A stretch of DNA of 64,000 nt from Tengunoibacter tsumagoiensis (GTDB lineage Bacteria; Chloroflexota; Ktedonobacteria; Ktedonobacterales; Ktedonobacteraceae), in the NCBI RefSeq assembly GCF_003967535.1, contig NZ_BIFR01000001.1:2417001-2481000 (forward strand). The letters run 5' to 3'. Under the pieces are notes generated by a model. The model saw only the letters and a list, made by a program, of their open reading frames with translations. It did not search any database and was not told the origin of the DNA. This document shows positions 14,603-36,691 of this stretch, in pieces (the first letter of the stretch is position 1; every line of letters starts with the position of its first letter). Made by a program: the position numbers and the translations under genes.

Positions 14603-14763
14603 ACCGATTTTCATCCGGTCCTGTCGGTTGGCGTAATTGGGTCCTGTGCGGCAGATGTCTGTGAACCCCGCCAGGACCGAGAGGAAGCAACGGTAAATAG
14701 GCCGCTCTGGGTGCCACAGTGTTGCCTGATTACGCTAACCGGCAGGACCGGGTGAAAATCGGT
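14603..14763 (+). ncRNA. ffs: signal recognition particle RNA
   Basis: The universally conserved Ffh-binding domain is present: CCAGGACC, GNRA-type loop GAGA, then GGAAGCAACGG around 14671-14694. The ends form one long helix: 14603-14637 pairs with roughly 14730-14763, with only G-U deviations. The whole reads as a ~160-nt hairpin, longer than the ~100-115-nt 4.5S form, and no Alu domain is evident. It sits directly before dnaX, a position known for SRP RNA in other bacteria. Exact ends are inferred from pairing. Confidence 0.88.
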
Positions 14764-34726: not shown

Positions 34727-34755
34727 TTCACAAGCCAGAGCGATTGTGGTACAAT
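34727..34755 (+). promoter_or_regulatory. tRNA promoter
   Basis: TTCACA (34727-34732), 17-nt spacer, TACAAT (34750-34755). Transcription should begin about 4 nt before the tRNA. Confidence 0.65.
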
Positions 34756-35022
34756 AAAAGAGTAAGGGCCCATAGCTCAGCGGTTAGAGCAGTCGGCTCA
34801 TAAGTGCGCTCATGCGCTTACAAGTCCCTTGCCTCAGAAGATGAGGCGGTACAGGGATGAATGTACCTAAAGCGCAACCTTACCTGATGGGGAAACTCAA
34901 AGGGGAAACTAGCATGGTTGTAAAAGTCTGTTGCGGGCCTATCAGGAGGACCAATAGGACAGGCAGCTAGGCCGTATATGGTTAAGACTAAACTGTTTGA
35001 ACCCTAGTCGAGGCGGACTTGT

Positions 35023-35027
35023 CCGAC
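35023..35027 (+). other. candidate EBS2 of the intron
   Basis: CCGAC is the exact complement of GTCGG (34792-34796), the anticodon-stem strand just upstream of IBS1. It sits at the edge of a small hairpin (CCGA...TCGG), so the assignment is plausible but not certain. Confidence 0.5.
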
Positions 35028-35076
35028 GTTTCATCGGAACCTGTTATTGCCGATGTGCAAAGATCACCGGGTAAAG

Positions 35077-35083
35077 TTATGAG
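35077..35083 (+). other. EBS1 of the intron
   Basis: TTATGAG lies in the loop of a stem (CACCGGGT with ACCTGGTG) in domain I. It is fully complementary to CTCATAA (34797-34803), the whole anticodon loop of the tRNA. Confidence 0.85.
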
Positions 35084-35346
35084 ACCTGGTGAACATCCCT
35101 CTTTGCAGCCGCGCCCAACGAGGGCGGAAACCGACGAACGGGGAACCTAAGTACGGAACAGGAACTTGTAGGAACTTGAGGATCGCCTAAAAGACGAGAG
35201 TCTCATGGCGACGGAGCGTCCATAGTACTCAAATGATCGAGGTAATGCTCGATACACGGGGAAGGGACGCAGGAGAAGGCGGAAGCTATGTACCAGGGTG
35301 TACCGGATGGTGCATTAGCCCTGGGAAGATGAACCGCATCTCTGGA

Positions 35347-35380
35347 GAGCCGTGTGCATTGAAAGGTGCATGCACGGTTC
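35347..35380 (+). other. group II intron domain V
   Basis: 14 base pairs, GAAA tetraloop, AU bulge at 35370-35371 and catalytic triad AGC. All the hallmarks of a functional domain V. Confidence 0.95.
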
Positions 35381-35496
35381 GGAGAGGGGCAGTTGGAAAC
35401 GCACATTGTGATAGGTCGACCACACAATGCGGCGCGCTGGCTATCTACTCTACCTGATTGGTCGTTGGTTCAAATCCAACTGGGCCCATTTCCCAC

Positions 35497-35546
35497 AAAA
35501 GAAGGGACCAGTTCTCATTTTTCGTTGAGAACTGGTCCCTTCTTTT
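35497..35546 (+). terminator. tRNA terminator
   Basis: A 21-bp perfect stem (35497-35517 with 35526-35546) ends in a T-run. Its A-rich left arm also makes it a terminator for the HNH gene on the minus strand. Confidence 0.88.
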
Positions 35547-35584
35547 ATACCCACCCCTCAATGTCGTAGATAAAAAAGTAGGTA

Positions 35585-36403
35585 TTAGTGTGTCTTGCAT
35601 TTTTTGATGATATTCTTTAACTCGTTTATAGTTAAGGGGTTATCTGGTCTACGATGCAGCATGCGGTGGCAATTTGCACAGAGAACGGCCATATCTTCTT
35701 GTGGGTCAACATGTGTTTCTCCTTCATAAGAACTGACGGGCTTTAAGTGATGAACTTCGATGAAGCCTGCACCAAGCTCTCCATACGTCTCTGTGAAGGA
35801 GAAGCCACAGATCTGGCAGATGGTGCCATGAAACTTGATCGCATCAGCTCGCAAGCGAGGATTGCGTTCATGCGTGTTGACAAGCCTGGAGATGAGTTTC
35901 CCTTCTTTGAGGAGTCCTGGCGTAAAAGATTTTTCTCCAGTCTTTGTTGGAGTTTCTTCCTCAACCTCGATGGCTTCTAGATCCTTCTCTACAGTGAGGA
36001 GGAGATCATCGATCTTCTTCAGCACAAATTGTGTGGGGTGTACACCAGAATGACTTTGATAGGAAAAGCGGCCTTCATACTTAAATTTATAGCCAGGCAA
36101 GTACTCATCTTTCCGCTTACGATAAAACACAAGTATCTCCAGACCTCTTTTCTTGTGTTCGATAATAAGAGCATCTTTGCCGCCTTGAGGCTGCCCATCC
36201 CAGTAAAGCGTATCTCCAACAAGCAGGTCAACAAGTTGCGGTCGGTCTTTTGCTTTCTCTTCAGTAATAAAGAGCCAGATCGATTGGGTACCTTTAGGTT
36301 GGAAGATACCAGTATTAATAGTTGCATCTGTAATAGCGAAGATGGTACTCAGATCATTGCGACTGTAGAGATTCCCTTCAGTGAGTTGGGCAGATGTAAA
36401 CAT
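35585..36403 (-). CDS. HNH endonuclease with N-terminal sensor-like domain
   Basis: 272 aa from MFTSAQLTEG, with GGGAGG 9 nt upstream. The C-terminal ~90 residues form an HNH nuclease of the McrA type: CQICGFSF, FIEVHHLKPVS, DMAVLCANCHRMLHR (a zinc knuckle of two CxxC around the HH and H). The N-terminal ~150 residues (LYSRNDLSTIFAITDATINTG; LVFYRKRKDEYLPGYKFKYEG) resemble the DNA-reading half of restriction-type HNH proteins. A modification-dependent or single-protein restriction role is an inference. No methyltransferase lies nearby. It is adjacent to the intron-split tRNA. Confidence 0.75.
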   Translation of the reverse strand: MFTSAQLTEGNLYSRNDLSTIFAITDATINTGIFQPKGTQSIWLFITEEKAKDRPQLVDLLVGDTLYWDGQPQGGKDALIIEHKKRGLEILVFYRKRKDEYLPGYKFKYEGRFSYQSHSGVHPTQFVLKKIDDLLLTVEKDLEAIEVEEETPTKTGEKSFTPGLLKEGKLISRLVNTHERNPRLRADAIKFHGTICQICGFSFTETYGELGAGFIEVHHLKPVSSYEGETHVDPQEDMAVLCANCHRMLHRRPDNPLTINELKNIIKKCKTH

Positions 36404-36691
36404 AGGATTGCGCCTCCCTGCATTGTGAGAGATGAATTCTAGAAAAGTATGTATAGAAGCAGGTAAACGAGCAATCAGCATAGATAGGCATATTTTATCA
36501 CGTCTGTAAGCATTTTTTGTTGACTATTTTGTTGCTCTGTCTATGGGGAATGCAATGACCATAGATGTCTCTTCCAACGAATAAATCTGGTTTTCTCCTC
36601 CTTCCGATGGATGATTCTAGGAGGTGGATCTGGTAGTGTGTGGAGAGGAATGGGAAGGTTTATTAGTTCTATTGGCTGGAAGGATGGTGCG

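Follow-up and report, generated by a model that had tools for sequence, protein, structure and literature searches.

An ORF-less group II intron splits the predicted tRNA-Ile2(CAU) gene of the bacterium Tengunoibacter tsumagoiensis

Chloroplasts, rather than bacteria, are the known setting of group II introns in tRNA genes; beyond trnK, trnV and other chloroplast tRNA genes carry them at positions in the anticodon loop. The trnK/MatK system is a chloroplast tRNA group II intron of this kind, and many chloroplast introns are described as having no protein gene (PMC4424553). A 2015 review describes bacterial group II introns as mobile elements that, apart from some exceptions (chiefly in cyanobacteria), seldom lie in housekeeping genes, and forms without an open reading frame (ORF) as rare (PMC4424553). 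The introns specified for bacterial tRNA genes in the papers available to us, including tRNA-Ile2 of Acidovorax and Burkholderia and cyanobacterial tRNA-fMet, belong to group I and hide their host genes from scanners (PMC8450103). Here we analyse a 64,000-nt stretch of the genome of Tengunoibacter tsumagoiensis (Chloroflexota; Ktedonobacteraceae; contig NZ_BIFR01000001.1, positions 2,417,001 to 2,481,000; hereafter the window, in whose numbering coordinates are given), in which a tRNA gene is split by a 650-nt group II intron. We consider it very probable that this is a single-gene unit holding the only tRNA-Ile2(CAU) of the genome, and that its ORF-less intron is functional and spliced out to yield a mature tRNA.

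One sentence of a 2014 review holds that bacterial tRNA genes have no significant insertions other than group I and group II introns at position 37/38, and cites for this a study of tRNA precursors with group II introns by Vogel and Hess (2001), which reportedly dealt with plant chloroplasts; the table and text of the review name group I only for bacteria (PMC4033280). A further source names both intron classes for Bacteria in general terms (PMC4390854). These mentions of group II introns for bacterial tRNAs speak against novelty, although the review sentence names no bacterial case. Among the open-access matches listed, no title or opening of an abstract reports a bacterial tRNA gene with a group II intron, and the account of the Ktedonobacter racemifer genome, which gives 34 reverse-transcriptase (RT) genes, contains nothing on tRNA introns in the sections available (PMC3236041).

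Window segments 34766–34803 and 35454–35488, both on the plus strand, join into a 73-nt tRNA with a CAU anticodon; 650 nt separate its position 38 from its position 39. All stems form on joining (acceptor 7/7, D 4/4, anticodon 5/5 and T 5/5 pairs, G-U included), which bears out the original prediction, made from the letters alone, of two segments 650 nt apart that yield a fully paired tRNA(CAU); its placement of the intron at 38/39 and its boundaries are likewise upheld by the exon ends at 34803 and 35454. Exon 1 (positions 1–38) ends in CTCATAA, seven nucleotides that are at once the anticodon loop and intron-binding site 1 (IBS1). Exon 2 (positions 39–73, without an encoded CCA) was delimited from its sequence, its stems and comparison with Escherichia coli, in which the joined tRNA is 86.3% identical over all 73 nt to a gene annotated as tRNA-Ile. 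By this comparison the split gene is a tRNA-Ile2(CAU); a Met identity was ruled out, settling a choice between Met and Ile2 that had been left open. ARAGORN called no tRNA in the window, and the split gene was not among the 60 genome matches of the Rfam tRNA model. With both silent on it, the gene is one that standard scans miss, just as had been predicted. A control in which each side of the junction was moved by at most 3 nt had no discriminating power, as ARAGORN still called a tRNA in most of the 49 combinations; the case is therefore carried by stem pairing, covariation of the exon pairings and conservation.

The interrupting sequence (34804–35453, plus strand) was assigned to group II from an Rfam match, an RNAalifold alignment and counts of pairs. 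Rfam model RF00029 matched domains V and VI at 35345–35453 with 63.2 bits (gathering score 40, E = 4.5e-10), confirming the predicted intron class and canonical 34-nt domain V. A group I intron was rejected, there being no such Rfam match in the window and a clear group II match instead. The intron starts with GTGCG at 34804 and ends in CTAC (AC at 35452–35453), and the ORF list holds no RT-sized frame within its 650 nt, so that it is not the form bearing an intron-encoded protein (IEP). Folding of 13 ORF-less tRNA introns with RNAalifold gave domains I to VI with 126 pairs, 84 of which showed two-sided changes. Paired cells made up 95.4% of the total against 34.5–44.8% when the structure was slid along the alignment, a control that favours a structure derived from the same sequences, and the covariation score was 0.588 against 0.10–0.12 when slid and 0.241 in shuffles, none of 500 shuffles scoring as high. 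Domain I occupies 34809–35180 (columns 13–480 of the 13-intron alignment A1) and includes the delta base, G 35076, and exon-binding site 1 (EBS1), TTATGAG at 35077–35083, in the loop of a covarying hairpin (helices 11 and 12). The 13-intron consensus places domain II at 35183–35211 and domain III at 35216–35270. Domain IV (35272–35343) is short, at 72 nt, and by the consensus, the ORF list and ARAGORN contains neither an RT gene nor a tRNA; it is followed by domain V (35347–35380, from Rfam and the consensus) and by domain VI with the 3' end (35383–35453), where A 35447, the seventh base from the intron 3' end, is the expected branch point.

The EBS1 of this intron pairs 7/7 with the anticodon loop CTCATAA, and the delta base pairs with the first base of exon 2. 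Across 21 introns of this kind, 18 of which were aligned (the other three being near-identical Thermogemmatispora copies), EBS1 lies in the homologous covarying hairpin loop and matches the anticodon loop of its own host at 7/7 positions in 19, with G-U pairs allowed. Loop and EBS1 change together with the host: CTCATAA/TTATGAG for Ile2, CTCCAAA/TTTGGAG for Trp, CTCTTAA/TTAGGAG for Lys (one G-U), TTCCTAA/TTAGGAA for Arg (genome G027) and TTCACAC/GTGTGAG for Val (one G-U). In 17 of 18 rows the base before EBS1, variously G, A or T, is the Watson-Crick partner of the base that opens exon 2, and its column was the best of 878 scanned; we take it to be the delta position of group IIA introns. Judged from these alignments, covariation of EBS1 in introns of other tRNAs is the strongest evidence for exon recognition, and the EBS1 and delta pairings point to the splice sites without recourse to the tRNA fold. 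In four relatives, extra nucleotides precede the motif [GTC]TGCG (seven in G045, two in G029, six in G028 and four in G020). EBS1 still fits the exon end in these introns, which places their 5' splice site, by prediction, upstream of the motif; the branch position is T in G020, and the other three keep the A.

The interruption is shared across the family. Among 27 exon-1 loci fetched at the level of the order, 11 are interrupted at the identical nucleotide (gaps of 530–754 nt), 13 are intact and three yielded no Ile2 with our filter; family genomes G021, G030, G031, G033 and G034 and most of the remaining order lay outside this set. Of the 17 pairs in the acceptor, anticodon and T stems, no fewer than 16 form in each of the 11, which include six Thermogemmatispora genomes (G037–G042), and the interruption of tRNA-Ile2 is common to five other genera of the family. 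A pattern combining a tRNA 5' half with GTGYGC matched 22 times in 11 of 400 evenly drawn genomes of the phylum, all 11 from the family of the window, against 0 for the reversed control; the count is a lower bound, as other D-arm types and displaced 5' ends escape the pattern. The shared nucleotide in 11 of 27 loci, together with the 22 versus 0 matches, indicates that the interruption is more than chance. Group II introns at 38/39 also occur in tRNA-Trp(CCA), tRNA-Lys(CUU), tRNA-Arg(CCU) and tRNA-Val(CAC) of the same family, accepted where the printed 23-mer showed a tRNA anticodon arm, the remaining pattern matches being judged chance by eye. One further match (G036:C1:656251) resembles tRNA-Thr, with no exon 2 found when looked for. 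Contig G044:C397, counted as intact, carries an Ile2 gene with a changed anticodon stem (GTCCC/GGGAT, altering the IBS2 region) and, about 380 nt downstream, a second Ile2 exon 1, after which come intron-like sequence and gaps in the assembly.

Whether the split gene is the only one of its kind was assessed in the assembly (7.70 Mb in two contigs, 96.1% complete, 8.9% contamination), where the Rfam model found 60 tRNAs, with 150 of 222 first-look candidates scored. ARAGORN, run on the Rfam loci, returned four intact CAU tRNAs, three presumably of initiator type and one presumably an elongator Met, as typed by stem features that we take to be diagnostic. No other Ile2 and no Ile(UAU) was present among the tRNA loci found in the assembly by the two programs, and an exact whole-genome search for TAGAGC-N6-CTCATAA matched only the elongator Met and the split gene; a second Ile2 gene is unlikely. 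The original prediction had regarded another intact tRNA(CAU) of each type as evidence for a dispensable copy and made the weight of splicing depend on there being one copy only; the intact genes found do not refute it, and as far as the two contigs show, the split gene is the single Ile2. tRNA-Ile2 is a substrate of TilS, and a TilS gene is present (family match 170 bits). AUA is rare yet used, accounting for 9 of the 221 Ile codons counted across seven ORFs of the window. With only this Ile2, no Ile(UAU) and AUA in use, decoding of AUA depends, on the present assembly, on the split gene.

In all six Thermogemmatispora genomes the Ile2, Trp and Lys(CUU) genes are each interrupted by an ORF-less group II intron. 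The single-contig genome of T. carboxidivorans PM5 (G038) yielded 46 tRNAs, with 88 of 88 candidates scored, and among these ARAGORN found no intact Ile2, Trp or Lys(CUU); tRNA-Lys(UUU) is intact. In the 12 Trp and Lys introns of the genus the joined tRNA forms 17/17 checked pairs and EBS1 pairs 7/7; one of them, the G039 Trp intron, starts with GCGCG. These 12 and the six Ile2 introns have G at the expected position of the branch A. No RVT_1, TIGR04416 or GIIM match was obtained in the six genomes (other genera being positive), PF01348 not having been searched there. The missing branch A predicts a first step by hydrolysis, as described for several plant mitochondrial introns (PMC4513849).

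Protein-encoding relatives occupy the same tRNA site in other bacteria. Besides the family, the Ile2-junction scan (15 loci) met Pseudomonas fragi, Massilia, Psychrobacter, Cupriavidus and Burkholderia (L116, L118, L120, L117 and L119), as well as a metagenome-assembled genome labelled Acidobacteria (L115) with a 551-nt Ile2 intron, possibly on a misbinned contig. The scan's Microvirga splendida locus (L114) covers 78 bases only, and two further loci, L112 (Aenigmatarchaeota) and L121 (Clostridiales), were rejected as not being such introns. In P. fragi, Massilia and Psychrobacter, introns of 2566–2711 nt lie between both tRNA halves and encode an IEP of 616–621 aa; Pfam domains of the Massilia protein are RVT_1, Intron_maturas2 (PF01348) and an HNH domain resembling that of AI2M. 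Further introns of the IEP type, flanked by both halves, were found in tRNA-Arg(CCU) of G027 (L213) and tRNA-Val(CAC) of G036 (L217) and, through IEP similarity, in tRNA-Leu(UAA) and tRNA-Leu(UAG) on two Pseudomonas plasmid records (L245, L246). IEP matches numbered 591 plasmid and six phage records, four of which were looked at: a Cupriavidus necator plasmid IEP was dismissed as a tRNA intron, having no tRNA sequence beside it, and a Microvirga lotononidis plasmid record shows a tRNA(CAU) after the IEP. Counting Cupriavidus (partial, 3' half unseen), eight introns with an IEP were seen, and seven contain an intact tRNA with the anticodon of the host gene, Psychrobacter being the exception; the Burkholderia locus, which ends before any IEP, also holds such a tRNA within the intron. 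A tRNA carried in this way might stand in for the host gene that the intron has invaded. Six tRNA-intron IEPs share 44–55% identity (Massilia and Cupriavidus 87%) and are at most 41% identical to nine other IEPs of the order.

In the splicing that we propose for T. tsumagoiensis, the precursor RNA would fold into domains I to VI, EBS1 would pair with the whole anticodon loop (positions 32–38) and delta with the base that opens exon 2. Attack on the 5' splice site would then probably come from the bulged A 35447, after which the exons would be joined and the lariat released. Splicing in the cell would probably follow this lariat route, with or without a maturase acting in trans, and the mature tRNA, once modified by TilS, would read AUA. 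Mobile group II introns directed at the anticodon loops of tRNAs are the probable ancestors of the intron, which would now serve splicing only, here and in its relatives.

We lean, though only slightly, towards a broader account, in which a bacterial intron lineage has specialised on anticodon loops. Mobile members would retarget EBS1 and delta to new tRNAs while bringing along, as a replacement, an intact tRNA that has the anticodon of the gene invaded, and this would buy tolerance for their entry into an essential single-copy gene; later loss of both the protein gene and the spare tRNA would make the intron obligatory. On this account Ile2, Trp and Lys(CUU) of Thermogemmatispora, sole copies where inventoried, would depend on introns without a branch A, in genomes without a detectable group II RT, so that splicing would be autonomous and hydrolytic.

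Several observations weigh against a functional, spliced intron or against details of its descent, and are given here with the explanations that they favour. The functional case, including that for splicing, is built from DNA sequence; 72 of the 222 tRNA candidates are unscored, and the assembly has the completeness and contamination stated above. This would suit a dead tRNA, in which the intron killed the copy and made it a dispensable pseudogene, with another tRNA, missing from the assembly or the scan, reading AUA. We give that explanation almost no credence, since no other Ile2 or Ile(UAU) was found, TilS is kept, the joined tRNA is fully paired and the identical interruption recurs in 11 other genomes; sole-copy status was inventoried in the genome itself and in G038, which has no intact Ile2, Trp or Lys(CUU). 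Hardly better placed is the idea of a recent mobile element in transit, caught before becoming a fixed intron. IEP-encoding introns do occupy the same tRNA site in other bacteria, but the present copy lacks an IEP, the best match to it elsewhere in the genome spans 58 nt around domain V at 83%, and the five other genera of the family share the interruption. How often introns entered is another matter: the RNA tree of the ribozyme core (FastTree and IQ-TREE) is poorly resolved, with several deep supports of 26–51 in IQ-TREE, and the trees do not discriminate between one insertion and repeated insertions for the Ile2 introns of Thermogemmatispora, of other genera and of Proteobacteria.

A functional intron might still need the RT/maturase of another group II intron of the genome, and this we regard as a serious possibility, somewhat short of an even chance. 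The genome has four other RT genes and five other group II domain V matches. Its two kinds of IEP, however, sit on another branch than the tRNA-intron IEPs and are only 31–39% identical to them, which makes their help in trans uncertain. The six Thermogemmatispora genomes, with three introns each and no detected RT within the search described above, suggest that relatives manage alone, although a MatK-like remnant may exist there. Further points against the proposed exon recognition are that EBS1 pairs at only 6/7 positions in Massilia and in the tRNA-Arg intron of G031 (in the aligned loop), that delta is an A.A mismatch in Trp, the sole exception of the 18 rows, that inspection by eye showed no conserved EBS2-IBS2 equivalent across relatives (CCGAT of the present intron could pair with GTCGG), and that the extra nucleotides of G045, G029, G028 and G020 put the 5' splice site upstream of the usual motif.

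Set beside the described systems, the functional intron favoured here resembles chloroplast tRNA introns in that a group II intron lies in an essential tRNA, with several such introns per genome and many ORF-less. It differs in its bacterial chromosome, its position at 38/39, the absence of nuclear splicing factors and its hosts, which are tRNA-Ile2(CAU), Trp(CCA), Lys(CUU), Arg(CCU) and Val(CAC). With the bacterial group I introns it shares membership of a self-splicing class and the hiding of tRNAs, tRNA-Ile2 included, from scanners, but the ribozyme is of another class, recognisable here by domain V, the GTGCG...AC ends and the EBS1 and delta pairings. C.te.I1 of Clostridium tetani, an ORF-less intron whose genome contains no IEP gene, was named in 2015 as the one exception of this sort then known (PMC4424553). 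Thermogemmatispora shares this trait as far as detected and, unlike C.te.I1, would contribute three introns from each genome, all within tRNA genes. Group II introns of fungal rRNA genes are described with extra nucleotides before GUGYG, splicing 1–33 nt upstream and a lost branch site (PMC4424553); the four relatives with displaced ends share the extra nucleotides, but they lie in a tRNA, and the branch A is still there in all of them except G020.

A sigma-70-type promoter-like site on the plus strand (34727–34755; TTCACA, 17 nt, TACAAT), a consensus match only, agrees at 10 of 12 positions and ends 10 nt 5' of the tRNA; the scanned region contained three such sites against 1.3 expected. Downstream on the same strand lies a terminator-like hairpin of 21 bp (35497–35546; -37 kcal/mol for 35495–35548), whose T-rich stretch falls inside the 3' arm of the stem and which is absent from the consensus-scan output. 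With these two elements on either side, the tRNA gene looks like its own transcription unit. Just past the hairpin, convergent to the tRNA gene, is a gene for a 298-aa protein with an HNH endonuclease domain (35585–36481, minus strand). Elsewhere, the window contains a gene for the small signal recognition particle RNA (14635–14734, plus strand; Rfam RF00169, 57.7 bits).

These findings suggest that some bacterial tRNA genes, with no second copy in the genomes inventoried, depend on group II introns, and that standard tRNA scans of these genomes overlook needed genes. The spare tRNA of mobile relatives suggests an entry route for a selfish intron into an essential single-copy gene. The passage from a mobile retroelement to an obligatory splicing-only intron, usually a topic of organelles and also of the origin of spliceosomal introns, becomes testable in bacteria, including some named strains. 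In Thermogemmatispora, decoding of AUA, UGG and AAG, the last in part, given the intact tRNA-Lys(UUU), may hinge on ribozyme activity; if the broader account is true, an organelle-like state would have been reached inside bacteria.
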